Positions 1,542 through 20,344 of a DNA stretch of 20,344 nt are shown piece by piece. The number at the start of each line of letters is the position of its first letter. Position 1 is the first letter of the stretch. The position numbers and the translations under genes were made by a program. The notes beneath the pieces were generated by a model, which worked only from the letters and a program-made list of their open reading frames with translations, searched no databases and was not told the origin of the DNA. The DNA is from a virus: IMG/VR virus record IMGVR_UViG_3300030099_000821, positions 1-20,344 of that record; one strand, given 5' to 3'.

Positions 1542-4500
1542 TAGCCTCTACCTCTACCACCACTAGAATTTAATATTCCACCTGGTCTCATTTCTTCTTG
1601 TAATTTTTGTTGTACTAAGTTTCCAATCTGTCTACCCATTCCTGCTAGTGCTCCGTCGCCTACTGTATTTGTTTGAGCGCCTCCACCTTGCATATTTACT
1701 GTGACATTTACAATATTAGTACCACCTTCTCCCATCATCTTTACAGGTATGCTTCTATCATTTCCAAGAGGAACAACAGCTTCTCTTCCGTGTAGCTTTG
1801 CCATATAACCAGACTCAGGGCCGTCTGCTACACCTCCATGAGCATAAGATCTTTCTCCACCATACCTATCTCCGCTTCCTAATCCCATTAAGTCTGTGAA
1901 GCCTCCGCCTGACCCCATGCCAGGGAAGAAAGCCATCATAGCTTTTAGGGCTGCAGCTCTCATAAACATAGAGGCTAAGTCCATAAGTACTTGTTTTGTT
2001 AAATCTTTCATAGAATCTTTAAAAGATTTAGTTCCGTCTATCATAGCTTGGAACATATTTTGGAAACCATTTGAAAGAGTATCTTTTATACCATTCATAA
2101 GTTCAGTTTCTATTTTAAGCAATTCCATTGTTTCAAACTGCTTTTGAAGACCCTCAAGTTCTTTTTCAGTAAACTCAACTCCTAACTTTTTCTGTTCTGA
2201 TACAAATTGATGGTAAGCAGCTGAAGCAGGATTTATAGAGCCTATGTGCTCTCTTGCTATCTCTAACTCCTCTTGCATAATCTTGAGTTTTTGTCTAGCA
2301 ACATCTCCGCTTTCAATATCCTCTAGCATGACTTTCTTTACGGTCTCCATGTTTATTTGCTGTGTGAGACTGAGTTCTGTTTGTTTTAATTGGTTAAATT
2401 TCTTTTGTGTTTCTGTTAAGTCACCTGTAAACATACCGGTGGCTGCATTAAAATTACTTGCAGTTGTATCTGCTTTAAGATTAGTTATTTGACTTCCTAT
2501 ATTCTCCTTTTGAAGTTCAAGATTGCTAATAGTACTTTTGTGCCTACCTATTTGATTTCGTCTTTGTGTTGCTACTATTCCACCTGCTCCAAATTGAGAC
2601 ATTCCTGCAAATTGGCCTCCACCTACAGCTGCATCTCTTTTTTCTTGTAATCTTGCAAGTGCCATTTCATCTTTTAAAACTTTTTCTTGTTGTTTTAAAA
2701 CTTCCATCTTAGGCTCTAATTCAAAAAGTTTTTCTTTTATATCAAGTTTTTCTCTAAGCAAATCGTTTTGGAATTTTATAATATCTGCTTCAGTGTTTGC
2801 GTTCTCTACTGCTGCCGCTGAGGCTTCTACTTCAGTAGTACTAAGATTATTTTTTACTAAAGCGTCCTTAAGAGCTTCTTTATCCATATTTAAAACATCT
2901 TGTTTCTTAAATAATAACTTTCCTTGCTCATCTTCTAACGCTATTAAAATACCTCTTTGTTTTTCTAAAACAGCTTTTTCAGCAAGCTCTGCTGCCATGA
3001 TATCACTTTTAGCTTTATTTTCTTTATCTGTAAGCATAAGCCTATCATTTGCTATTCCCTGTTTTGTTCTCTCTAGTCCTACCTCTTCTACAAGTATTCT
3101 TTGTTGTTCTTTTCTATTATTAAGAGTATCCTGTACATTTTTTAGACCAAATTGTTGTAAAGCATTTACATCACTTTCTAATGCTTTTTGCTGTCTTAGT
3201 GTTTCCTCTTTAAATGCAATAACTTTTTCATCATCTTCAGTTTGTTTTTGAATAGCTGCAATGTCTTCTCGAATCTTTTTCTCTTCATGGTACTGCCCCA
3301 TCATTCTTTCATAAATTCTAGAGCCTTCTTTATGACCGCTTGCAATAATAGCGTTAATCATTTCTACTTCGCTAAGTAGTTCTCCTGCTTGGTTTTCCAT
3401 GCTTAAGACTGTGTTACTAAATTGAGCACCTGACGAAGAGCTATAGACTTGCTTACTACTATCTAGTCGTAACTTAGCTATTTGCGCTCCTCTAATCTTT
3501 CTTTGTTCAGCAAGTTGTCCTTTTAATCCGAATCGGTCAATTGTTTGATTTCCTTTTTCATCTACACCTAAACCTAGTTCTGCTTCTAAATCTGAGATAC
3601 TTGCTGAAAAAGCTGTTTTTAAGTCTTGGAAAGGAAGCTGTTTAAATTTACGTATTTGTTTATCAAGTGTTTTATTTAATGTTTCTTGGTTTTGAGAGAA
3701 TCTTTTTGAAGCTGCAGCAGCATTTTGATATCCATTAGCAAGACTAGTAAATTCTGATACCATAGCCGCTGTAATTGGTAATCCCTCTTGTATTCTACTA
3801 TTTAATTTGGCTAGGCCGGGAGCAACAATTTCTAAACTATCTCCCATTTTTCTAGCTTCCTTCATAAAGTCGCTATTCTTATCTGTACCTTTTGCAATTT
3901 CTTTATTATATTGTTGGATTCTTTTATTTAAGTCAGCACTACTGAGAGCATTACCAGATTGTTCTACCATTTGACTAATACCTAGTAACCCTGGAGCTTC
4001 TCTGACTTCTGCCATTTTGCTTAGTTCACTATTTAGTTGTTGAAACTCTTCTGTAGATTTCTTTGTTTCTTCTCTAAGTTTTTTAGCAGTCTCATCTAAG
4101 TCTCTAAAAAAGTTTATTAACGATGCAACTGCCTGTATTATCATAAAGACAATACCAATAATACCAGCTGCCATCATAGCTCTATTCATTGCTTTGGCTG
4201 CAAAAGCTGTGGCTCTAGTCATAGCTGTCATGGTAGCTTGATAAACCATTTGTGTACCTTTATAAGCAGCTCTCTTCATATTTTCAGTAGCCTGTACAAT
4301 AGATCTCTGCTTTGTACTAGAGCCTTGTAACATTGCGTCTTGTGCATTTAAGTGGTTTCTAAACGCTCTTCTTTCTTGAGCGTTCATCTTCATGTAGATA
4401 CCTTTCTTTTCACGCATCATACGTCTGTATGCGGCTACTTGTCGTTTACTGAGAGTTTCTTCGTTTTTTCCACTAAATTTCTTTACGCCTAAATCTTGGA

Positions 4501-5575
4501 GTCCTTTCTTAGAACTTGCTGCATCTACTGGGCCTCCTGCAAAGGCATCTCCTACTCCTTGTATAGATGCTTTAAATTCAGAGGCATCTGCTATAGCTTG
4601 TTTCTTATGGTCTTTAAACTTTGAAAGTGAATCAGCGGCTGCCTTGTTCATATCTGGCAGTAGTGATTTAATAATTGGAGTAACAAATAAACCTACAGCA
4701 GCTATAAGTGCCATAGAGTTTTCTTTGAAAAAGTTGATAATTGGAATTAGTCCTTCAATGATGAACTTTTGGAATCCCATGAGTAGGTCGTCCATCTCTT
4801 TTTGGAACTGACCTAATGCGAATGCATCTGGATCCATTATTTTTTGGATTGCTCCAAATTTAACTTCTGCCTGCCCTACAACATCATTTAAAACAGCTTG
4901 TGTTCTCTCAAACGCATTTAATTGTTCTCTTGTTTTTCCGATAGAAACAGCATACTTTGTAGTTGCATTTTCTAATCTCAAAACAATACCAAGTTCGTCC
5001 AAGAGTTCTGGCTCTGCTTTCGTAACACCACGAACAAGCCTGTTAAAAGAGTCTGTCAAGTCTCTACCAAGAGCAAGTGAAGCATCAGTTGCCGCTTTAC
5101 CTAATTGTTCCATTTGACTAGCACTTAGTCCAGAAGCGATACCAATAGCAGCTCCCTGTGCGGCAGTTTTAAAGTCTAGCATACCTTGAGTAGCGTCTTG
5201 AATATTAGTTGTCAAAGTTCTATATGCAGTACCCGTAACTGCTCCAAAAGCTTCTTGTGCAGCCATAAGGTTACGGGTCTCCATTGAAGACTTTAAGAAT
5301 TGGAATGCGGCAGTAAGCGCAAAGACCTGCGCTGCGATAGTTGCATAGACTTGAACAAGACCACCTTGCATGGTCGCCATCTTTGCAAATTCTTTAGTAC
5401 TGTTTGATGACTGCTGGGTTACACCTTTTATCGCACGGTCAGTATTTTGAGCAGCTCGACCAGTCTTATTTAAATTCTTCGCTAGTTTTTCTGCTTCTTT
5501 ACCTGTGACTTTAAAAGAACCACCATCGGTGGTTTTGATAATAATCTCAGCAGCTTGTATTTTCTTTTTTGCCAT
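1541..5575 (-). CDS. H: Tail length tape measure protein
   Basis: A 1344-residue tape measure, the longest gene in the window, which sets tail length and is expelled during DNA injection. Evidence: size, position directly after the G/GT chaperones and before M, long stretches of charged alpha-helix, and hydrophobic segments at about 73-92, 271-305 and 467-490. The C-terminal part has the pattern typical of lambda-like tape measures: a helical hydrophobic stretch (LTKQVLMDLASMFMRAAALK), a Gly-rich patch, then AHGGVADGPESG and LHGREAVVPLGNDRSIPV. At the usual rough ratio of about 1.5 angstrom per residue the tail would be about 200 nm, implying a siphovirus. No peptidase or lysozyme motif was found. 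The stop of the upstream T frame directly abuts this ATG (TAAATG), so initiation probably relies on coupling; the upstream AAAGG is a poor ribosome site. Confidence 0.95.
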   Translation of the reverse strand: MAKKKIQAAEIIIKTTDGGSFKVTGKEAEKLAKNLNKTGRAAQNTDRAIKGVTQQSSNSTKEFAKMATMQGGLVQVYATIAAQVFALTAAFQFLKSSMETRNLMAAQEAFGAVTGTAYRTLTTNIQDATQGMLDFKTAAQGAAIGIASGLSASQMEQLGKAATDASLALGRDLTDSFNRLVRGVTKAEPELLDELGIVLRLENATTKYAVSIGKTREQLNAFERTQAVLNDVVGQAEVKFGAIQKIMDPDAFALGQFQKEMDDLLMGFQKFIIEGLIPIINFFKENSMALIAAVGLFVTPIIKSLLPDMNKAAADSLSKFKDHKKQAIADASEFKASIQGVGDAFAGGPVDAASSKKGLQDLGVKKFSGKNEETLSKRQVAAYRRMMREKKGIYMKMNAQERRAFRNHLNAQDAMLQGSSTKQRSIVQATENMKRAAYKGTQMVYQATMTAMTRATAFAAKAMNRAMMAAGIIGIVFMIIQAVASLINFFRDLDETAKKLREETKKSTEEFQQLNSELSKMAEVREAPGLLGISQMVEQSGNALSSADLNKRIQQYNKEIAKGTDKNSDFMKEARKMGDSLEIVAPGLAKLNSRIQEGLPITAAMVSEFTSLANGYQNAAAASKRFSQNQETLNKTLDKQIRKFKQLPFQDLKTAFSASISDLEAELGLGVDEKGNQTIDRFGLKGQLAEQRKIRGAQIAKLRLDSSKQVYSSSSGAQFSNTVLSMENQAGELLSEVEMINAIIASGHKEGSRIYERMMGQYHEEKKIREDIAAIQKQTEDDEKVIAFKEETLRQQKALESDVNALQQFGLKNVQDTLNNRKEQQRILVEEVGLERTKQGIANDRLMLTDKENKAKSDIMAAELAEKAVLEKQRGILIALEDEQGKLLFKKQDVLNMDKEALKDALVKNNLSTTEVEASAAAVENANTEADIIKFQNDLLREKLDIKEKLFELEPKMEVLKQQEKVLKDEMALARLQEKRDAAVGGGQFAGMSQFGAGGIVATQRRNQIGRHKSTISNLELQKENIGSQITNLKADTTASNFNAATGMFTGDLTETQKKFNQLKQTELSLTQQINMETVKKVMLEDIESGDVARQKLKIMQEELEIAREHIGSINPASAAYHQFVSEQKKLGVEFTEKELEGLQKQFETMELLKIETELMNGIKDTLSNGFQNMFQAMIDGTKSFKDSMKDLTKQVLMDLASMFMRAAALKAMMAFFPGMGSGGGFTDLMGLGSGDRYGGERSYAHGGVADGPESGYMAKLHGREAVVPLGNDRSIPVKMMGEGGTNIVNVTVNMQGGGAQTNTVGDGALAGMGRQIGNLVQQKLQEEMRPGGILNSSGGRGRG

Positions 5576-6396
5576 TTACCTTTTTGCTTTTGCTCGCCTT
5601 GCTGAGGCGTCTTGCTTACGTTTAAGCTCTGCGTTGATACTCATCGTCGAGTAGCTTTCAATGTTTTTTAAGAAAAAGCAAACAGTCTTTTTGTCGTCCA
5701 CGCCTTGTATTTTTAATAAGGCTTCAAGAGCAGACCAGTCTTTTCCCATGTATGACCCACTCATTCCGTCCCATCTATCAGGAAGCATAGCGTGAACTAC
5801 AAACGCCTCCTGTATCTCTAAAGGAAAGTCCCCCATTTCTGGAGGCATTTCTTCTAGTTTAGGTTCTTGACCTAATTGCTCGCACATCATTAGATATGCA
5901 TCTAAACTTATGTTATCTGAGTAATATCTTTCAATTAGAGCAAGAGCCCACGCTACTTGCTCTGTGTAAAATTTTCGAGGTCACCTACCATTTCCGTTAC
6001 CCAACTATCAAAATCAGTAGAGTTTTTCATAAGAACTTCAACATTCTCTTGTGTAAAGTCTAGTTCTTTTTCTTCCTCTTCTGGAGTTAAATCTCCAAGT
6101 AGTAACATATTCTTAGCATATGCAAGTTTAAATCCTGTCCACCCTTTAATTACTGCTTTGGTGTACTCTTCTAAAAACTTATCATCGTCCATTACTTCTT
6201 CATAACTTCTTGTTTTTCTATTAAAGTTTTGAGTAACGCAACGTCCTCTTAATTTTACGAGTTCTTCTCTCGCCAAGTAACAAAGTTTTACTTTAAATCC
6301 TTCACTACCTGGATAGTCAAATTCTACAGTTTTGCTTGGAGTCATAAGACTTTTTAACGAGACTGCTTTGACTGGTTGTTTTACTGTGTCGTTCAT
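5576..6396 (-). CDS. Tail assembly chaperone, -1 frameshift fusion (gpGT-like)
   Basis: Predicted long form made by -1 ribosomal frameshifting: 143 residues from the G frame up to codon TTT (5970-5968), then 130 residues in the -1 frame to TAA at 5578-5576, 273 in all. After the slip the frame reads YTEQVAWALALIERYYSDN and runs without interruption into MMCEQLGQEPKLEEM at 5890. The T part on its own has an ATG at 5890 but no ribosome site before it, and its most natural beginning is 26 codons further upstream, which supports a fused product rather than a separate gene. In lambda the GT form recruits tail tube subunits to the tape measure; the same role is inferred here. The T part ends in a Lys/Arg-rich tail, ASARRAKAKR. 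Confidence 0.8.
5953..6396 (-). CDS. Tail assembly chaperone, short form (gpG-like)
   Basis: A 147-residue product of the 0 frame, the abundant short form of the tail assembly chaperone that coats the tape measure before tube polymerisation. Evidence: location between the major tail protein and tape measure, size close to lambda gpG (140), an acidic C-terminal half, and the presence of a -1 frame that continues without a stop into the downstream T-like region. The start has AGGA five bases upstream. It ends at TAG 5955-5953, fifteen bases beyond the predicted slippery heptamer. Sequence identity with gpG is not obvious; the call rests on synteny and the frameshift. Confidence 0.78.
   Translation of the reverse strand: MNDTVKQPVKAVSLKSLMTPSKTVEFDYPGSEGFKVKLCYLAREELVKLRGRCVTQNFNRKTRSYEEVMDDDKFLEEYTKAVIKGWTGFKLAYAKNMLLLGDLTPEEEEKELDFTQENVEVLMKNSTDFDSWVTEMVGDLENFTQSK
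5968..5974 (-). promoter_or_regulatory. Slippery heptamer A AAT TTT for -1 frameshift
   Basis: In the G frame the codons are GAA AAT TTT ACA; the heptamer A AAT TTT fits X XXY YYZ, so both tRNAs can re-pair in the -1 frame (AAA TTT). It lies just before the G stop (TAG 5955-5953), in the region where the two frames overlap, as expected for tail chaperone frameshifts. I did not model a downstream pseudoknot or stem. Confidence 0.72.
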
Positions 6397-10400: not shown

Positions 10401-12446
10401 TTAGCTAGCTTTATACATATAACCCCACTTAGAAGTTGCACCATCGATTAGGTCTGTGAAACCTATTCTTTGAGAAGCCACTAGGACTCGTCTTTGGTTA
10501 GCTACTTCGTAGTCTGATTCGATTGTAACACCTCTTAATCTAGGCATTACGAAGTTCATTGGGTTAACAGCTATTGCTGCGAACTTACCAACTGCTGGTG
10601 TAGCGAATTCGTCACATAATAGTACTCTTGATCCGAATACCTGTCCGATTTCACCAGATAGCTTAGTTGCCATGTCGCCAACTAGGTTAGCATCTTGGAA
10701 CTCAGCATCTTCTAGCAATTCAAAGTAAGATCTTTGTGATACGATATAAACCACATCTGCTGGGTTAATACCATATTTACCCATGTTCTTTCTCATTGAA
10801 AGTAATTCAGCAGCTGTCAAAGTATCAGATGCGAAAGCAGTTGTACTTTGTGTGAAGTCTGAATCATTTCTTGCTAGGTGTAATAAACCTTCGAAAGAAG
10901 CACCTGAGGTACCGAAAGCACCATCAGCATCATCACCAGCTAAGATAGCATTTTCTATTGCTCTTGCATGAGATCTAACGATAGATTCTCTGATAAGCGG
11001 TAGAATTGGCATGATTGCATCTTCTTCAGTTTCATTACCTAAGTATGATTGTGAAATAAGTTTTTTGGTTGAAAGAGTTCTTTCAGTTAAATCAACCCCA
11101 CCAAATGGCGAACCATAGGTGTCTCCTCTTTCAGCTAAGTTACCATGTGGTGAAGAACCACTTGCTGTTTGCCCTGAAGCAAACTCAGCGTAACCTGCAT
11201 CTGGAAGGATTGGGATAATCATGTTTGCTGAAGTCATTGGAATTTCTCTGAATAGAGGAGCCAAGACTAGCTCGTTTTGAATATCTCTTTCGACGTTTGT
11301 TGAAACGATTTGCTCGAAGTCAGCAGAAGATACTTGAACACCTGAATGTTCGTTCACTTTTTGCATAACGCCTTTTGCATAATCTGTTTCGTAACCTTTA
11401 CCAGTAGCAAGACCTAGAATCTTAGCATCAAGAATGTCTCCTTGAAATGCTTCTTTCCAGTCTTTGTTGCCTCTGTCTGCAAAGATTCTTTTGGATTCTC
11501 TGATTGACATAATTTCTTCAGATTTTTCTGCTAATTCTTTTTCAAGAGATTTAACAACTGTTTCTAAATCTTCATGCTTCTCATTGACACGTTTTTCAAC
11601 GTCTTCCATAAGTTTCTCAGCACCTGACAACCCACTTGCAACGATTTTCTTTTGTTTTTCCATTTCAGCTTGCTCTTCAGCTTGCTTAGCTTCTGCTTCT
11701 GCTTGTGCCTTTTCGTCGGCTTCAGCTTGTGCTTTTGCTTCAGCAGCTTTTTGCTCAGCTTGTTTCATTGCGATGGAAGCGGCAGTTTTTTCCGCAACTT
11801 CTTTAGCGAATGTTTCCAAGTCGAACTCAGGGCTTGCTTCAGGAGTTTTTACATCTTCTGACATTTTCGTCTCCGTTTTGTCGGCTATTGCCTCGCTTGA
11901 CTGCTCAATCTTAGCGTCTGCTCCAATTGAGTTAGTCTGAATAAAGTCTTGTTTAAACTTGTTGTACTCTTCCATATTGTCAAATGACTTCGCAATAGAG
12001 AAGACAGCGTTTTGGTTACAGGGAACCGAAACTACTGACACTTCGAACAGTTCAGCGTCCTTTATCTTATATCCGTCGGTTTCGGTCATATATTCAGCGT
12101 CCTTGACCTTGAAACCGACACTAAAGGCTCCAAGAACGCCGTCTTTAATAAGATCTTTTATTTCGTTGGCGGATTTAGAAATACGGGCTGTAATATCTAA
12201 ACCGTTTTCACCAACACTAAGTTCTTTTGCACGACCAATAGGTCTGTCATAGTTGTGATTAAACAATATAACTGGATTATTTTTAAAATTTTCTAATCCA
12301 CCTTTTGTCCATGCATCATGTTCAATTATATCGCCAGCTCTGTCGACAGCATTTGTACTAGCACTTCCTTTGATGTCTAGTCCACCGTCGTCGTCTTCGC
12401 CAAGCATTTTGAACGAGTTTGTCCAATGAAATATTTTCTCAGACAT
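10401..12446 (-). CDS. Prohead protease-scaffold-major capsid fusion protein
   Basis: One 681-residue polypeptide with three parts. Residues about 20-155 are an HK97-type prohead protease (S78/U35): IKGSASTNAVDRAGDIIEHD (25-44), NPVILFNHNYDRPIGRAKEL with likely catalytic His64, GAFSVGFKV with likely nucleophile Ser109, and ELFEVSVVSVPCNQNA (132-147). Residues about 205-320 are Ala/Glu/Lys-rich coiled coil, the place of the HK97 delta/scaffold domain. Residues about 325-681 are the HK97-fold capsid: DFEQIVSTNVERDIQNELVL, REIPMTSANMIIPI, a long E-loop region (about 416-465), ENAILAGDDADGAFGTSG and a C-terminal P/A domain. The ribosome site is excellent (AGGAGG, 7 bases upstream). In HK97 protease and capsid are separate genes; here self-cleavage must release mature capsid. 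An internal start at codon 195 may supply protease-free capsid. A strong hairpin follows the gene. Confidence 0.93.
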   Translation of the reverse strand: MSEKIFHWTNSFKMLGEDDDGGLDIKGSASTNAVDRAGDIIEHDAWTKGGLENFKNNPVILFNHNYDRPIGRAKELSVGENGLDITARISKSANEIKDLIKDGVLGAFSVGFKVKDAEYMTETDGYKIKDAELFEVSVVSVPCNQNAVFSIAKSFDNMEEYNKFKQDFIQTNSIGADAKIEQSSEAIADKTETKMSEDVKTPEASPEFDLETFAKEVAEKTAASIAMKQAEQKAAEAKAQAEADEKAQAEAEAKQAEEQAEMEKQKKIVASGLSGAEKLMEDVEKRVNEKHEDLETVVKSLEKELAEKSEEIMSIRESKRIFADRGNKDWKEAFQGDILDAKILGLATGKGYETDYAKGVMQKVNEHSGVQVSSADFEQIVSTNVERDIQNELVLAPLFREIPMTSANMIIPILPDAGYAEFASGQTASGSSPHGNLAERGDTYGSPFGGVDLTERTLSTKKLISQSYLGNETEEDAIMPILPLIRESIVRSHARAIENAILAGDDADGAFGTSGASFEGLLHLARNDSDFTQSTTAFASDTLTAAELLSMRKNMGKYGINPADVVYIVSQRSYFELLEDAEFQDANLVGDMATKLSGEIGQVFGSRVLLCDEFATPAVGKFAAIAVNPMNFVMPRLRGVTIESDYEVANQRRVLVASQRIGFTDLIDGATSKWGYMYKAS
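11862..11874 (-). promoter_or_regulatory. Internal ribosome site and ATG inside protease-capsid gene
   Basis: GGAG (11874-11871), six bases of spacer, then in-frame ATG (11864-11862) = Met195 of the fusion. It lies between the protease and coiled-coil domains; initiation here would give a 487-residue scaffold-capsid product (10401-11864) lacking the protease. The arrangement is like nested scaffold genes (lambda C/Nu3). Spacing and sequence are as good as at many real starts in this window; use in vivo is inferred. Confidence 0.55.
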
Positions 12447-14297: not shown

Positions 14298-14326
14298 ATT
14301 ATACATAACTTTGGGTTCAATGTCAA
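14298..14326 (-). promoter_or_regulatory. Sigma70-type promoter P2 (before HNH-portal-capsid)
   Basis: TTGACA (14326-14321), 17-bp spacer, TATAAT (14303-14298): both hexamers match the sigma70 consensus exactly. It sits in the 72-bp gap between terminase stop and HNH start. Expected transcription start is near 14291, giving a short leader. The -35 lies within an 18-bp block shared with promoter P1. Confidence 0.87.
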
Positions 14327-14350: not shown

Positions 14351-15649
14351 TTAGAACGTTGTCGCCGTGGTCTCGAACGAATACAACGCATATCGTAGTG
14401 CGTCTGCCATATGTGATGCATAGTTATGCACTGGTTTCTCTTTCAATAAATTGGGGTTTGGATCCCACTGGTATTGGTCAAGTGAGAGTAGTGATTCTTT
14501 ACACCTTTGATCAACTATAAGTTTATCATTATCACAGATCGCTGCTACATGACCAATGCCATCTAGAACTGATTTCTTTGCGTTGATAGTAGTAATATCA
14601 TAGTTTTGTGCAAAGTCGAACCTCGTTTGTTGTGCAGCAGAATCAATATAAATATAATCAATAGCCCATTTATTGATTAAATCTCTAATTTTTTCTGCGT
14701 GTTGTTCAGTTGTTCTTTCTGCATCTAAGTACTCATCTAGTAAGTAGTATTTATCTGCGTCCCAATCATAACCTATAACACAGAAAGCTGTAGGGTCTTT
14801 ATAACCCACGTCCATTCCTGCGAATATATCCATTTTACTAGTATCTAATTCGACTAAATCAGAAACACATTCTTCATGCTTAAAGCCCCATACCTGGCCT
14901 TCGTAAGTATTGAAGTCTGCCATATACTCTTGATTAAATTCAGCTTCAGACATGGTCTTTCTAGCTTCTTGTATATCTTCTTCAGATATTCTAGGATTCT
15001 CATGATAGGTAGCTTTTACACTTGCCCACTCTGGGAACTGGTCTGAATATCCTCTTTGAAAAAACTCTGCAAACCAATTATTTCTACCACGCGGTGTAGA
15101 AATAAATAATGCTTTTGAGTTGTCTTTATCTAGTGTAGGTCGTAGTGCAACATTAAACGCATCACGTCCGTCGACAAGTGCCGCTTCATCAAAAATGATG
15201 AGGTCATAGGAGCGACCAACGACTGAATCCACTTGATTAACCGAGCCCATACGTATTGTAGAATGGTTCGAAAGTTCAATAACTTTATCTTTTGCATTAT
15301 CTCTAAGTACCTCCAAATCAAAATGTTTAATTAGACTTCTTTGTAAATCAAAAGAAATCTGGGAAAGTGAGTAGTTAGGTGACATAAGTAAAACATTGCT
15401 ATTCGGAACAAGACACACGAGTTGTCCTATCACGTTTGCAATATATGTTTTACCTTGTCTACGAGAAACTGCGGCAGTAACAAAACGATACTTCGGATTG
15501 TTCATGCAGTTTATAATTGAATTTTGAGTTGTGTTAGGTTCGATACCTAATAACTCCATGTATGAATTTATAGGAAGCTTGATGAATCTATCTTCATCAA
15601 AGGTCATGAGAAACTTGCTTTCTACATCAGTTCTACTGGTTTCTAGCAT
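14351..15649 (-). CDS. terL: Terminase large subunit (packaging ATPase-nuclease)
   Basis: A 432-residue large terminase with both domains. ATPase: the deviant Walker A SRRQGKT (62-68) typical of terminases, Walker B LIIFDEAA (150-157, Asp154/Glu155), and the coupling motif STPRGRNNWF (184-193). Nuclease (RNase H fold): GMDVGYKDP with Asp280, YIYIDSAAQQ with Asp336, and HMADALRYALYSF with Asp416, the three metal-binding acidic residues. It pumps DNA into the prohead through the portal and cuts concatemers. The ATG shares a base with the stop of the 74-residue gene upstream (TAATG). No standard small terminase is recognised next to it. The stop TAA is followed after 13 bp by the repeat and promoter P2. 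Confidence 0.96.
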   Translation of the reverse strand: MLETSRTDVESKFLMTFDEDRFIKLPINSYMELLGIEPNTTQNSIINCMNNPKYRFVTAAVSRRQGKTYIANVIGQLVCLVPNSNVLLMSPNYSLSQISFDLQRSLIKHFDLEVLRDNAKDKVIELSNHSTIRMGSVNQVDSVVGRSYDLIIFDEAALVDGRDAFNVALRPTLDKDNSKALFISTPRGRNNWFAEFFQRGYSDQFPEWASVKATYHENPRISEEDIQEARKTMSEAEFNQEYMADFNTYEGQVWGFKHEECVSDLVELDTSKMDIFAGMDVGYKDPTAFCVIGYDWDADKYYLLDEYLDAERTTEQHAEKIRDLINKWAIDYIYIDSAAQQTRFDFAQNYDITTINAKKSVLDGIGHVAAICDNDKLIVDQRCKESLLSLDQYQWDPNPNLLKEKPVHNYASHMADALRYALYSFETTATTF

Positions 15650-15890: not shown

Positions 15891-16148
15891 TTATCTACGT
15901 CTCATTATTCTAGAGTGCGATCCTTTGCCGAATCGTGCTCTTTTAGGGCCAGCTGACTTACCATATCTAGGTCCGATGCCTTTTGCCCCAGTAGAGTATC
16001 TAGCATAACTAAAACTGTTAGGGTTCCTGCTATTAACGACAGTTCCTGCTGCAGCGTTCATGTCTCTAGTAACGCCCCTTCTTAGTACATGCTTTCTAAT
16101 CTTTTGTGTGTTGTGAATACCTGTTGGTCCACTTAAGAATTTAGCCAT
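15891..16148 (-). CDS. Small basic Gly/Arg-rich protein
   Basis: An 85-residue basic protein, unknown function. It begins MAKFLSGPTGIHNTQKIRKH and ends with Arg/Lys/Gly-rich sequence (GKSAGPKRARFGKGSHSRIM, then RRR). It has almost no acidic residues. A GGAG stands seven bases before ATG, and the ATG overlaps the stop of the upstream gene. It fits the cationic group described for 16909-18480, but is separated from it by three non-cationic genes. Possible roles, all inferred, are nucleic acid binding or packaging in the head. Confidence 0.65.
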   Translation of the reverse strand: MAKFLSGPTGIHNTQKIRKHVLRRGVTRDMNAAAGTVVNSRNPNSFSYARYSTGAKGIGPRYGKSAGPKRARFGKGSHSRIMRRR

Positions 16149-16584: not shown

Positions 16585-16899
16585 TTAAGTAACGCCTGGA
16601 TTATTCCTAGCAGTTTGGGTCGGACTAAATGCCATACCCGGGGTGCCTATAACCTCATTGCTACTTGCCCAAAACTTATGTCTTGTAATTCTTTTCCATA
16701 ACATCAGTCTTTCATTTGGAAGTATTACTACACTCCCTATAACGTCTGAAGGGTCTGCAGAATTACCATGATATATAGTTTGGGTTGCATTACTAGTATT
16801 TACAAATAGTACTACACTAGTAATATCACTAAATGAAGTGGCAGTCTCTGGTGTCGTTGGACACGCTGCGCTATTACCACCTACTGAAAATGCTAACAT
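16585..16899 (-). CDS. Small beta-rich protein, unknown (possible virion surface protein)
   Basis: A 104-residue protein, neutral and beta-strand rich: SFSDITSVVLFVNTSNATQT (about 22-41), GSVVILPNERLMLWKR, KFWASSNEVIGTPGMAFS, and a terminal ARNNPGVT. It has almost no Lys and differs sharply in composition from the cationic genes just upstream. The strand pattern and Thr/Asn/Ser content resemble small decoration or fibre-attached proteins, but no family is recognised. A GGAGA lies upstream of ATG, 9 bp after the preceding stop. Confidence 0.6.
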   Translation of the reverse strand: MLAFSVGGNSAACPTTPETATSFSDITSVVLFVNTSNATQTIYHGNSADPSDVIGSVVILPNERLMLWKRITRHKFWASSNEVIGTPGMAFSPTQTARNNPGVT

Positions 16900-16908
16900 T
16901 TCGTTCTC

Positions 16909-17199
16909 CTACCATTTAACTTTGTTTGCCCAATATGCGGCAGACAATTTTCCCTTTGCTATGTTTCTACGGTGTCTCGCTTTAAAAGAACGTCTTTTTG
17001 CTTTCATTCGCGCTGACTCTCCCTTCTTAGGTTTCCCCGCAGTTTTAGCACCTTGCTGTCCAAATCGGATAGTCTTAATTTTATTTCCTACTTTGGCAAC
17101 GACAATGTGTGACTTTTTAGGGTGATTAGGTGTCCTTTTTGGTTTGTTATAACCTTTAACGCCTGCTCTTTTTAGTCTTGGATCTCTTTTTCTTGGCAT
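16909..17199 (-). CDS. Cationic small protein (RHRRNIAKGKLSAAYWANKVKW type)
   Basis: A 96-residue very basic protein. The N-terminus is MPRKRDPRLKRAGVKGYNKP; the middle has HIVVAKVGNKIKTIRFGQQG, a small beta pair; the end RSFKARHRRNIAKGK, then LSAAYWANKVKW, is a conserved terminus I remember from several marine phages, with no known function. A GGAG is found eight bases before ATG. Its first 44 bases overlap the end of the upstream cationic gene in another frame. With its beta pair and ordered C-terminus it is not just low-complexity sequence, so a folded nucleic-acid- or virion-binding protein is plausible. Confidence 0.72.
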   Translation of the reverse strand: MPRKRDPRLKRAGVKGYNKPKRTPNHPKKSHIVVAKVGNKIKTIRFGQQGAKTAGKPKKGESARMKAKRRSFKARHRRNIAKGKLSAAYWANKVKW

Positions 17200-17485
17200 T
17201 GTTTGCTCTCCGTAAACCTGCTTTTGCAGATTTAAAAATTGATGCGACTGTCTTCTTTCCCATCACTTTTGCTCGTTGTTCTCCAACTGTTAATATTTGT
17301 ATCTTTCTTGCATAAGACTTACGAACCCGTTTTACTTTTCGTACAGTTGCTCTGGCATCTTTTGCAGTAGCAAACTTGATTCTGACAGTATCCTTTGGGT
17401 TTTCGTCAGTATAAAGTCTTCTTCCAGACCCTTTAGGTTTTTTACCTGTTCCTTTTTTTGGATCTCTTCTTTTTCTTCTTACCAT
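17156..17485 (-). CDS. Cationic small protein, beta-alpha core
   Basis: A 109-residue protein with basic tails (MVRRKRRDPKKGTGKKPKGS at the start; KKKRSKTKKSRR at the end) around a core RRLYTDENPKDTVRIKFATA (21-40), DARATVRKVKRVRKSYARKI and QILTVGEQRAKVMGKKTVAS, probably strand-helix-strand-helix. Function unknown. No clear ribosome site; its ATG lies inside the upstream 50-residue gene, with 44 bp of overlap in another frame, so coupling is likely. The overlap encodes basic peptides in both frames because it is a purine-rich run. Confidence 0.68.
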   Translation of the reverse strand: MVRRKRRDPKKGTGKKPKGSGRRLYTDENPKDTVRIKFATAKDARATVRKVKRVRKSYARKIQILTVGEQRAKVMGKKTVASIFKSAKAGLRRANNAKKKRSKTKKSRR

Positions 17486-17594
17486 AGCCTGATGCGTATA
17501 TCGCCCTGCCTTGGCGTTCTGCAGCTTTCTTCGTTTTGTAAATCTTTCCAGACTTACCCCAACGATAACCGCCTTTAACGCGTCTTACGGGCAC
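17442..17594 (-). CDS. Cationic 50-residue protein (GGYRWGKSGK type), GTG start
   Basis: A 50-residue protein read from GTG at 17594 (frame start MPVRRVKGGYRWGKSGKIYK), with AGGAG five bases upstream. A longer frame open from ATG 17660 exists but its extra part (LMFVLLLKEKEEQQ) is unlike the rest and lies inside the upstream gene, so I prefer the GTG. The core GGYRWGKSGK.Y....AAERQG followed by RAIYASGYGKKKKKRSKK is a pattern I remember as widespread in small phage proteins of unknown function. The 5' end overlaps the previous gene by 20 bases. Confidence 0.75.
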   Translation of the reverse strand: MPVRRVKGGYRWGKSGKIYKTKKAAERQGRAIYASGYGKKKKKRSKKRNR

Positions 17595-17874
17595 GACGTC
17601 TCCTTGTTGTTCTTCTTTTTCTTTTAGTAAAAGTACGAACATTAGTTGGTTTACCACCAACTCCTTGTTTCCTTGCTCTCTTCCTACGAACGGCTGAAGC
17701 TATTTGTTTCTTTGACATTCGTCTAGCTTTTGCGGCTGGTACACATTTAGGGTAGCCACCTTTTCCTGCTTTCTTTCTTCCGCATTTGTGGTATCCGCCA
17801 CCTTTTTTAGGTCTTGAGATATCTACCCAGTTCTGCTTAAACCATTTACCTAATCCGCCTCTAGCCTTAGCCAC
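17575..17874 (-). CDS. Cationic small protein with Cys motif (WVDISRPKKGGG...YPKCVP), GTG start
   Basis: A 99-residue protein from GTG (17874-17872), GGGAG eight bases upstream. Residues about 5-50 form a compact motif: GGLGKWFKQNWVDISRPKKG (6-25), GGYHKCGRKKAGKGGYPKCV (26-45) with Cys31 and Cys44, then AAKARRMSKKQIASAVRRKR and KQGVGGKPTNV. I remember this motif in proteins of phages and bacteria that have only a DUF-type name. The last 25 residues are almost pure Arg/Lys/Thr (KRKRRTTRRRRARKTR), protamine-like. It overlaps its neighbours by 8 and 20 bases. Confidence 0.75.
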   Translation of the reverse strand: MAKARGGLGKWFKQNWVDISRPKKGGGYHKCGRKKAGKGGYPKCVPAAKARRMSKKQIASAVRRKRARKQGVGGKPTNVRTFTKRKRRTTRRRRARKTR

Positions 17875-18055
17875 GTCTATATCTCCCGCCTCGCTTCTTG
17901 TATTCTCTTACAAGCCAAGCGTTCGCATACGCTGAAGGATAAACTGCAAACTTTCTTCTAGCAGCAGCTTTGACTCTAGCATATAAAGCTTTATTAGTAG
18001 GAATATTTCTTTTTGCTTTAGTGCTTCTTCGAGCCTTCCTTCTTTTTCTAGCCAT
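17867..18055 (-). CDS. Cationic small protein (YPSAYANAWLVREYKKRGG type)
   Basis: A 62-residue protein. A basic N-terminus (MARKRRKARRSTKAKRN) precedes a likely folded part IPTNKALYARVKAAARRKFA (18-37), VYPSAYANAWLVREYKKRGG (38-57). This latter part is a conserved motif that I remember from phage and bacterial small proteins of unknown function. The ATG shares a base with the upstream stop (TAATG) and AGGTAGGAAG precedes it. Confidence 0.75.
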   Translation of the reverse strand: MARKRRKARRSTKAKRNIPTNKALYARVKAAARRKFAVYPSAYANAWLVREYKKRGGRYRRG

Positions 18056-18237
18056 TATCTTCCTACCTTTCTCTGTGCCGCTTTGTGCGCCTGGGTAAAT
18101 GTTTTACCTTGTAGCATTAGTCGTCTCATCATAGCCATATGCTTTCTAGTATGATGTTTAGCATGACGTCTCATAGTTGCTTGTTGACGTTTAGTAAGAG
18201 TTTTTCTTTTGGTTTTTCTTTTTCGTCTAACAGCCAT
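18055..18237 (-). CDS. Cationic His/Met-rich small protein
   Basis: A 60-residue protein with 22 Lys/Arg, 5 His and 6 Met: MAVRRKRKTKRKTLTKRQQA, TMRRHAKHHTRKHMAMMRRL, MLQGKTFTQAHKAAQRKVGR. The middle is probably a single amphipathic helix, with all His and Met on a limited stretch. Strong ribosome site (AGGAGG, 4 bases before the ATG). Function unknown; the composition suits DNA or RNA binding, and the His cluster could bind metal. Confidence 0.75.
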   Translation of the reverse strand: MAVRRKRKTKRKTLTKRQQATMRRHAKHHTRKHMAMMRRLMLQGKTFTQAHKAAQRKVGR

Positions 18238-18316
18238 GATGCCTCCTCATGCTTTTGCGTTTCTTCCTGCCACCTTTTTTCTTTTTCTTCTTTTTAGGTT
18301 TGTAATGATATGGCAT
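18227..18316 (-). CDS. Very short Lys-rich protein (29 residues)
   Basis: A 29-residue frame, ATG 18316-18314 sharing a base with the upstream stop (TAATG) and ending TAG 18229-18227, overlapping the next start. It reads MPYHYKPKKKKKKKGG and so on, ending MRRHHGC; 11 Lys and 4 Arg out of 29. AGAGG is about eight bases before the ATG. I remember similar MPYHY...KKKK small proteins in marine phages. Short but well coupled and with the same composition as its neighbours, so probably real. Confidence 0.55.
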   Translation of the reverse strand: MPYHYKPKKKKKKKGGRKKRKSMRRHHGC

Positions 18317-18480
18317 TATTTTCTACCTCTCAACTTCCGTAAAATTGCTTGTTGCAATTTCTTTGGCAATCTTTTTTGAGCGGCTGTCAAACCTTTTCTC
18401 TTTTTCTTACCGTTCTTTCTTTTCTTGCTTTTCATCGGACGGCCTCTTCTTTTGCCGTACGTTCCTTTACCTGATGGCAT
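18316..18480 (-). CDS. Cationic 54-residue protein (MPSGKGTYG type)
   Basis: A 54-residue protein, MPSGKGTYGKRRGRPMKSKK then a Lys/Arg run, then LTAAQKRLPKKLQQAILRKL. 24 of 54 residues are Lys or Arg. Both ends are patterned rather than random: the N-terminal GKGTYG.+.GRP and the C-terminal LPKKLQQAIL recall a small protein widespread in marine phages. GGAG lies six bases before the ATG. Function unknown; GRP is reminiscent of AT-hook minor-groove binding (here RGRPM), which would be consistent with DNA condensation but is only an idea. Confidence 0.68.
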   Translation of the reverse strand: MPSGKGTYGKRRGRPMKSKKRKNGKKKRKGLTAAQKRLPKKLQQAILRKLRGRK

Positions 18481-18828: not shown

Positions 18829-19059
18829 CTATGGGTGCATTTGCCACATTGAATATATGACCCCAGCACCTCCCACAATGATTGTGCCTGCAACACTTAT
18901 TAGTATTGTCTCAATTCGTGTTATTGATGATTCAACACCGTCAAACCGTTTAGCAGACCTCCCTTCAATACCTTGGAGCTGATTAAATACAGTTTTCCAG
19001 CGCTCTTCACAAATGGCTTCGTGCTTTTTTAACTCGGCACTTAGTTCTTCGACTTCCAT
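18829..19059 (-). CDS. Coiled-coil plus membrane-helix protein, XhlA/holin-like
   Basis: A 76-residue protein, first gene after promoter P1. Residues 1-50 are charged helix (MEVEELSAELKKHEAICEER, WKTVFNQLQGIEGRSAKRFD), then a membrane segment at about 50-72 (ETILISVAGTIIVGGAGVIY), ending SMWQMHP. The layout (soluble coiled coil, C-terminal membrane helix) and the motif KKHEAICEERWK recall XhlA-type hemolysin or holin-accessory proteins. A role in lysis is thus possible but is not shown by the sequence. GGAG precedes the ATG, which lies about 35 bases after the expected transcription start. Confidence 0.6.
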   Translation of the reverse strand: MEVEELSAELKKHEAICEERWKTVFNQLQGIEGRSAKRFDGVESSITRIETILISVAGTIIVGGAGVIYSMWQMHP

Positions 19060-19102: not shown

Positions 19103-19131
19103 ATTATACCAAAATTACAGGGTCATGTCAA
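19103..19131 (-). promoter_or_regulatory. Sigma70-type promoter P1 (late operon start)
   Basis: TTGACA (19131-19126), 17-bp spacer, TATAAT (19108-19103), both exact consensus. It is just downstream of the adenylate cyclase stop (TAG 19137-19135) and reads into the small-gene operon and terminase. Expected start near 19096. The upstream 18-bp block is identical to that of P2. Confidence 0.87.
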
Positions 19132-19142
19132 GAACTATTTTT
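19125..19142 (-). repeat. 18-bp promoter repeat, copy 1 (covers cyclase stop codon)
   Basis: AAAAATAGTTCTTGACAT, identical to 14320-14337. Here the block includes the last Lys codon and TAG stop of the adenylate cyclase. Two exact copies with both -35 hexamers in register are unlikely by chance and suggest common origin or shared regulation. Confidence 0.85.
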
Positions 19143-20344
19143 CGATGGTATAAATTTTAACTGGTTCAGACTTTCCTTTCACCGTGACCTCGTCTAAGAA
19201 CTTATAGTCGAATCCGTCGACCATGCTGTACTCTGATATTATAAGATCGGTGTCATAGGTTTTACAAGATGATTCAAGTCTAGCAGCGAGATTAACAGCG
19301 TCGCCGAGAACACTATAATCAAAGCGACTATTACTACCCATATTACCGACAACACACGGTCCTGTATTGATTCCGACTCCAGTATTGATTTCAGGGCTTC
19401 CTTCATTCCTGAGAACATCATTTAACTCCTCTAAAGCTACTCTCATCTCGAGAGCGCACTCTGTGGCTTTTCTTTCTTGGTCTTCGACATCGAGAGGTGC
19501 GTTCCAAAAAGCCATGATGCAGTCTCCCATGTATTTATCTATTGTTCCCTCGTGTTTGAGTATGATATCAGTCTGATTAGTTAAAAAACGATTAACCAGT
19601 TCCACTAATTTTTGTGGGTCAGACTGATAAAATTCTGAAATCGGGGTGAAACCTCGGATATCAGAAAAAAGGAAAGTCATTCGTTTTGTCACCCCACCCA
19701 ATCTCAGTAATTTTGGATTATTTTGGAGTATTTCTACTTGGGCAGGGCTAACATACGTCCCAAATTGTTGTTTAATCTGTAATCTCAACAAATATTGAGT
19801 AATAAAACTATGAAATTGTACAATACTCCAGAATAAAAACAGGATAACTAGCGTGCCAGAAACGTCAAATAAGTAGGAAGACTCAACAAGCTTCCAAGAA
19901 GCGAAGCCAGTACCTCCTAATAGTGCTAAAATGACGGGTAGGCTGAGCCAAATGTTGTTAGCTACAGCCATAATTAGTACCATTCCGATAAGTATGATAC
20001 CAAGTTCTGCTAAAAAGCTCCAAGATGGCTGTGAAAGAGGCTCTCCGCTGATTAAAGTGTTAAGAACTGTTGCCTGAACTTCGTGAGGATACTTTGGACC
20101 GCCTGGAGTTGCTACAAGAGGAGCCACTCCCTCTGCAGTCACACCAAAAATCACAAATGGTGCCGGGATTGGCTCCTTCATGTATTCGGCTGCTGTCTGT
20201 CTGTAAAATTTTGTGTTCCAATTTGCAAATACAAGACCGTTTTCATTAGTAGTCAACTTACCATAAGCTGGTATTCGTACCCACTCGACTCCAGTCTCTT
20301 CAGTTTTTATCTGATAGCTTGGGTCTCCAACCGCAAGTCGTAAC
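19135..20344 (-). CDS. CHASE2-type membrane class III adenylate cyclase, 5' end cut by window
   Basis: About 402 residues visible; the frame stays open to the right edge, so the true start is outside (TTG at 20256 is internal). Order: the end of an extracytoplasmic CHASE2 sensor (GDPSYQIKTEETGVEWVRIP, FVIFGVTAEGVAP, TPGGPKYPHEVQA), three membrane helices at about 108-129, 130-149 and 161-180 of the visible part, a linker, then a class III cyclase domain. Catalytic marks: FSDIRGFT (metal Asp at 19662-19660), DKYMGDCIMAFW (second metal Asp; Lys that reads adenine), and VLGDAVNLAARLES (adenine-reading Asp, transition-state Asn and Arg). The Lys/Asp pair indicates ATP, hence cAMP. All key residues are present. 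C+G and codon use look higher and different from the phage genes, so it is likely a bacterial gene next to a prophage; a phage-carried cyclase is the alternative. Confidence 0.92.
   Translation of the reverse strand, partial: LRLAVGDPSYQIKTEETGVEWVRIPAYGKLTTNENGLVFANWNTKFYRQTAAEYMKEPIPAPFVIFGVTAEGVAPLVATPGGPKYPHEVQATVLNTLISGEPLSQPSWSFLAELGIILIGMVLIMAVANNIWLSLPVILALLGGTGFASWKLVESSYLFDVSGTLVILFLFWSIVQFHSFITQYLLRLQIKQQFGTYVSPAQVEILQNNPKLLRLGGVTKRMTFLFSDIRGFTPISEFYQSDPQKLVELVNRFLTNQTDIILKHEGTIDKYMGDCIMAFWNAPLDVEDQERKATECALEMRVALEELNDVLRNEGSPEINTGVGINTGPCVVGNMGSNSRFDYSVLGDAVNLAARLESSCKTYDTDLIISEYSMVDGFDYKFLDEVTVKGKSEPVKIYTIEK

Follow-up and report, generated by a model that had tools for sequence, protein, structure and literature searches.

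Gene content of the locus

The window analysed here, a virus record of 20,344 bp (IMGVR_UViG_3300030099_000821), is probably a fragment of a genome. Every gene recognised in it is on the minus strand, in the order cyclase-like gene, small genes, a block of basic genes, more small genes, terminase large subunit (TerL), HNH, portal, protease-capsid fusion, connector and tail. Since the window carries tape measure and tail genes, the data point to a long-tailed phage; its TerL is about 48% identical to that of phage T5. The adenylate/guanylate cyclase-like gene that heads the region (19135-20256) is an odd cargo for a phage and is found at the same place in relatives (phrog_35576), while at 10401-12446 a Peptidase_S78 prohead protease and an HK97-type major capsid protein form a single 681-aa ORF.

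The initial annotation had drawn attention to eight consecutive, overlapping frames of 29-109 aa at 16909-18480 (here A to H) and to a related basic gene at 15891-16148 (here I); all nine are present, on the minus strand. It had placed the block just ahead of the terminase, and the block is indeed upstream of TerL, but five other small genes separate H and TerL. The features that concern us are the following:

19103..19131, minus strand: sigma-70 consensus promoter (TTGACA, 17 nt, TATAAT), just past the cyclase stop and ahead of the block and TerL
18316..18480, minus strand: A, 54 aa, net charge +24; core LTAAQKRLPKKLQQAILRK; 64 loci by profile; dN/dS 0.17
18227..18316, minus strand: B, 29 aa, net charge +15, Lys-rich, without apparent folded core
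18055..18237, minus strand: C, 60 aa, net charge +22; core HHTRKHMAMMRRLMLQGKTFTQAHKAAQRKVGR; phrog_31838
17867..18055, minus strand: D, 62 aa, net charge +22; core YPSAYANAWLVREYKKRGG, the N-terminal half of Pfam DUF5872
17575..17874, minus strand: E, 99 aa, net charge +37; core KWFxxxWVDI...CGRK...YPKCVP; phrog_23735 (E-value 6.5e-25); basic C-terminal tail
17442..17594, minus strand: F, 50 aa, GTG start, net charge +20; core VKGGYRWGKSGKIYKTKKAAERQGRAIYASGY; phrog_31267
17156..17485, minus strand: G, 109 aa, net charge +36; core GSGRRLYTDENPKDTVRIKFATAKDARATVRKVKRV...KIQILTVGEQRAKVMGKKTVASIFK; 27 loci; dN/dS 0.09
16909..17199, minus strand: H, 96 aa, net charge +31; phrog_7595 (E-value 3.5e-42, profile 3-96 of 96)
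15891..16148, minus strand: I, 85 aa, net charge +19, Lys+Arg 0.24; core FLSGPTGIHNTQKIRKHVLRRGVTRDMNAAAGTVVNS; dN/dS 0.17
14351..15649, minus strand: TerL, terminase large subunit; phrog_2 (E-value 2.9e-47); downstream of the block

Coding status and composition of the basic genes

The claim that these frames are genes rather than artefacts holds: all seven junctions from A to H overlap (by 1, 11, 1, 8, 20, 44 and 44 nt), hundreds of phages have relatives of them, and pairs of relatives in the families of A, C-H and I give a median dN/dS of 0.08-0.17. Such ratios indicate selection at the protein level, so that, judged by their substitution patterns, A, C-H and I are genuine selected proteins; a by-product of a purine-rich strand or of strand bias is thereby ruled out. 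For F, translation starts at a GTG (17594) behind AAGGAG, an arrangement conserved in relatives, in place of the TTG at 17660 given in the mechanical ORF list. Relatives of B are few (11 loci by profile, and one of 80 loci by blast).

The richness in Lys and Arg is equally clear, at 0.34-0.52 of the residues in each of A-H (34-52%) against 0.05-0.24 in the other genes of the window (at most 24%). Net charge per block protein ranges from +15 to +37 and the hydrophobic share from 17 to 42%, and one copy each of A-I sums to +226.

Conserved cores and family distribution

The four short motifs quoted in the initial annotation each turned out to be the conserved core of a family, and its picture of an ordered motif joined to a basic tail applies to most members. 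Its term "protamine-like" suits the charge but not the architecture. Protamines are short, Arg-dominated and wholly disordered, whereas most of the block consists of short conserved cores with basic tails: the cores of D, F, G and I are conserved and non-basic, H is predicted to be folded and E partly so, and B and the tails come nearest to protamine. In the AlphaFold2 prediction (pLDDT 83, pTM 0.70), H is a compact fold comprising a helix, a beta-hairpin and C-terminal helices that end in SAAYWANKVKW; the prediction for E is less certain (pLDDT 70, pTM 0.52). On the strength of these two models, the families look like small, at least partly folded cores with cationic tails, and not like protamines.

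A search of the PDB with the predicted fold of H gave no match (best E-value 2.0), and at the sequence level none of H, E, D, G, I and the DUF6321-type protein of P-SCSP1u had a significant match there. Among viral models, the fold of H retrieved phage relatives, an XkdF protein, a 1393-aa protein (as long as the CL131 portal), ORF125 of Vibrio phage ICP1 and, more weakly, a Tunisvirus protein (E-value 0.02, TM 0.59). DUF5754 was considered as a homologue of H, and its match is weak (E-value 0.17); homology is not claimed.

Relatives of H were found by tblastn in 48 phage records, from roseobacter, cyanobacterial, Puniceispirillum and Vibrio phages; those of E occur in Pelagibacter phages, and those of F in roseobacter, Aeromonas and Streptomyces phages. 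C, D and E are all present in the T7-like P-SCSP2, and families of the block are found in company with one another across podo-, sipho- and myophages. PF19197 and phrogs 7595, 23735, 31267 and 31838 are already catalogued, without a function. H matches phrog_7595 over its full length and is distinguished by its place in an eight-gene basic block.

D and E as halves of DUF5872

D matches PF19197 (DUF5872) over profile positions 1-39 (E-value 7.7e-9; 36.6 bits against a curated cut-off of 27.5). E itself gave no match to PF19197; its relatives match positions 51-90 below the cut-off—with the exception of the P-SCSP2 protein, which matches 43-112 (E-value 2.6e-15, 52.1 bits)—and by these matches the core of E corresponds to the C-terminal half of the domain. 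In phage CRP-207, two neighbouring stretches match PF19197 at 1-52 and 42-101. Both halves are found in one protein in five of our loci (L115, L119, L124, L140 and L141), and single ORFs of this kind, matching both parts, score E-values of 4e-12 to 3e-16; in the window, by contrast, the halves are separate overlapping genes with extra basic tails. Where D and E both occur, D precedes E in 39/39 cases among loci selected by TerL, in 32/32 among contigs selected by C, and in 64/74 among those selected by D (10 of them fused). C was found alone in 32 of 78 C-selected contigs and is therefore, by itself, weaker evidence of the cassette.

Fusions extend beyond the pair. E and D cores are joined to Peptidase_S78_2 in L141, where one 933-aa protein (3492-6290) unites an XkdF-type protease with the two DUF5872 halves and a zeta-toxin-like domain. 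In T4-like cyanophages, proteins encoded between or beside the terminase genes carry an E-type core, D-type sequence and DUF6321 in one chain. These proteins of the PF19846 (DUF6321) or T4-GC_119 type (ACG-2014f gp131, S-BM3 SBM3_00185 and S-SCSM1 gp29) share with the window genes the two cores, the terminase-adjacent position and an overall basic charge; they differ in being single chains of 300-1000 aa with DUF6321 and further segments, whereas the window genes are split and lack DUF6321 (no match to PF19846 among the ten window proteins scanned). DUF5872 occurs in phages as well as being listed in the gene table of the algal giant virus CpV-BQ1 (PMC12085832). Our full-text search, which covered open-access papers, found DUF6321 named nowhere and DUF5872 only in that giant-virus table, and brought up no paper that describes the cassette, in split or fused form, or connects it with packaging genes.

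A hypervariable slot upstream of TerL

We compared the window with 80 IMG/VR loci whose TerL is 79-92% identical to its own. Across this set, cyclase and TerL are separated by a hypervariable slot 2.0-5.5 kb long. In the 41 records that span the whole interval, the window among them, the slot holds 0-9 strongly basic ORFs with a median summed charge of +94, the ORF counts being lower bounds (the simple automatic caller overlooked E and a section of G in the window). Blast found H in 64 of the 80 loci, I in 50, E in 41, D in 39 and each of the others in a smaller number. Co-occurrence and order, which had been suggested as a check, are therefore conserved only in part: wherever close relatives have both genes D precedes E, but the set is otherwise an accessory mosaic and no fixed block, and no fixed set is essential, given that the number of basic ORFs can fall to zero. 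Other cargo upstream of TerL in three relatives (L022, L043 and L054), judged by eye from sequence, alternates with the basic genes and comprises genes resembling oxygenases and methyltransferases, and small proteins rich in Cys (KICxxCPxY).

The promoter ahead of the block, perfect in the window, is found at the equivalent place in all 41 records, with 12/12 consensus positions in 32 and 11/12 in nine. A second perfect TTGACA-17-TATAAT lies after TerL on the minus strand of the window (14298-14326) and is matched at 11/12 or better in 61/75 records, so that the two promoters flank the run of small genes and TerL and the portal run. We infer that the block and TerL form one transcribed operon. 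The first gene past the promoter (18829-19059), which is kept in relatives, has the look of a small lysis protein, coiled and anchored in the membrane (XhlA-like by eye).

Linkage to head and packaging genes

To describe the neighbours of these families, contigs selected solely by D or C were dereplicated and the nearest same-strand ORF of at least 170 aa was scanned against PHROGs. The commonest neighbour is terminase, with phrog_2 alone accounting for 21/76 downstream and 15/74 upstream neighbours in a raw tally that is not fully independent, as the contigs include relatives of the window (its cyclase family accounts for 7 of the upstream matches). Genes of such size number dozens per genome, and TerL is just one of them. 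Portal, head-tail adaptor, scaffold, minor head and head morphogenesis proteins follow in frequency. Unrelated phages thus have these families in the company of packaging and head genes, as would be looked for in internal head proteins. In P-SCSP2, D, C and E lie in that order between the scaffold and major capsid genes, and in P-SCSP1u a DUF6321-type gene directly follows the major capsid gene; the main text of the P-SCSP1u cryo-EM paper makes no mention of mass spectrometry. Elsewhere, in CRP-207 and CRP-9, lysozyme or endolysin genes lie close to H, and in Aeromonas LAh5 a holin adjoins F.

H-type cores are also fused to head proteins: one precedes an XkdF-like protease (Peptidase_S78_2) in protein 4L372XY_107 of Aeromonas phage 4L372XY, and another sits between the portal and MuF domains of the CL131 portal-MuF protein. 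The CL131 portal protein is reported to be among the virion structural proteins detected by LC-MS/MS (PMC6293099). S-SCSM1 gp29, which combines E-type, D-type and DUF6321 sequence, bears the GenBank label "virion protein". The S-SCSM1 paper reports 45 proteins detected by mass spectrometry, 13 of them of unknown function (PMC9602691), and the label is also carried by other unknown proteins of the record and is absent from its terminase; we infer from the record that it denotes detection by mass spectrometry, which would make gp29 a member of the DUF6321 type present in virions. In S-CREM2, ORF137 gave 4 unique peptides from purified virions (4.1% coverage; PMC10665884); encoded between terminase genes, it has DUF6321 only, without clear D or E cores, and is acidic (net -20).

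Several candidate links were discarded. The 118-aa GR11A protein is labelled Peptidase_S78_2, a label that Pfam does not support (the genuine fusion is 4L372XY_107); a D-core match within a "virion structural protein" of Ruegeria V13 lies on the opposite strand to that gene; and the gene adjoining the block (16585-16899), considered as a relative of the S-SCSM1 virion protein gp38, gave no alignment by blastp. A gene in the slot of one relative (L015:6503-6772) weakly resembles the virion protein gp39 (E-value 6e-6).

Candidate functions of the block

Broadly taken, a role in the head or in packaging is likely. More specifically, with about an even chance of being right, we propose to read the block as a mosaic cassette whose small, basic, head-associated products bind the packaged DNA in the virion. 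The small basic proteins would be made together with the packaging motor, from the TerL run; the small forms would enter the head with the DNA or during its packaging; their Lys/Arg tails would bind packaged DNA, and the conserved cores would give specificity for each other, for the portal or capsid interior, or for a DNA geometry. The proteins would help to order the genome or offset its charge, and may accompany it on ejection. Of the options offered by the initial annotation, internal head proteins gain most from the linkage to terminase, portal, scaffold and capsid genes and from the fused, terminase-adjacent homologues in virions, and binding to the host nucleoid or to ribosomes is less favoured. 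Against our proposal, the relatives detected by mass spectrometry are larger fusions, whose presence in virions could be owed to other domains; the spread from 0 to 9 basic ORFs in one slot and the lysis genes that adjoin H and F in some phages also speak against it. Since one copy each of A-I supplies only +226, neutralising in bulk a genome tens of kb long would take several hundred copies of each (thousands of molecules), and local organisation or a portal-proximal action is as plausible as bulk neutralisation.

Much of the same linkage would also suit factors that act during assembly, either within the procapsid core or alongside the terminase-portal motor, and are absent from the mature virion or present in traces: the genes are co-oriented with terminase, H- and D/E-type cores are fused to prohead proteases and to the portal-MuF protein, and the P-SCSP2 set adjoins scaffold. 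We nevertheless think this unlikely, because two fused relatives were found in purified virions and basic tails suit contact with DNA more than protein scaffolding. A role in host takeover, in which cationic proteins made late or ejected would act on the host nucleoid by coating or condensing it, or would attach to ribosomes or RNA, draws on the high charge, on an accessory and fast-changing gene content typical of host-interaction genes, and on a promoter that fits the sigma-70 consensus; the steady linkage and fusion to packaging and head genes, together with PDB searches in which the proteins used as queries matched no ribosomal or other nucleic-acid-binding structure significantly, make it distinctly unlikely, and its ejected-protein version overlaps with the explanation that we prefer.

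The variable slot itself raises the prospect that there is no single function, and that unrelated accessory genes with basic tails merely gather where insertion is permitted; differing cores, variable number and order, and presence or absence among close relatives all fit this. The strict D-E order in close relatives, the D-E-DUF6321 fusion and the recurrence of the same families together in podo-, sipho- and myophages weigh so far the other way that we regard it as improbable. Most improbable of all are cationic, disruptin-like lysis peptides that break the outer membrane, even though the opening gene of the operon (18829-19059) is small, with a product predicted to end in a hydrophobic segment, and H and F have the lysozyme, endolysin and holin neighbours noted above. 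The classified neighbours in most contigs are terminase and head genes, and phiKT gp28, which we take to be the disruptin, is a 56-aa protein of net charge +7 and 45% hydrophobic residues, against +15 to +37 and 17-42% in the block, to which it is unrelated by profile.

Known systems and implications

The small internal head proteins of T4 (IPI-III and Alt) are made with the head genes, lie inside the head, are ejected with the DNA, and carry a prohead-targeting sequence cleaved by gp21. We propose that the members of the block may resemble them in being made with the head genes, placed inside the head and ejected. Virus-coded basic proteins of eukaryotic dsDNA viruses, namely those of PBCV-1 and the baculovirus P6.9, have been proposed to neutralise or organise packaged DNA (PMC3281028), and we set them beside the block by description. 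By contrast, the common view is that tailed phages pack their DNA with cations and little basic protein, and one paper states that nothing shows basic proteins to contribute much to the neutralisation of phage DNA (PMC3281028), which counts against our proposal.

It is conceivable, though on balance doubtful, that many tailed phages of the ocean carry a chromatin-like kit of interchangeable small basic proteins that coat or organise the packaged genome, a kit partly shared with giant viruses through DUF5872 and the Tunisvirus protein with an H-like fold. If true, such a kit, present as micro-genes in some phages and as single fused virion proteins in others, would question cations-only packaging for a large share of marine phages and would link them to giant viruses, and it offers a testable function for several DUF and PHROG families widespread among ocean viruses.
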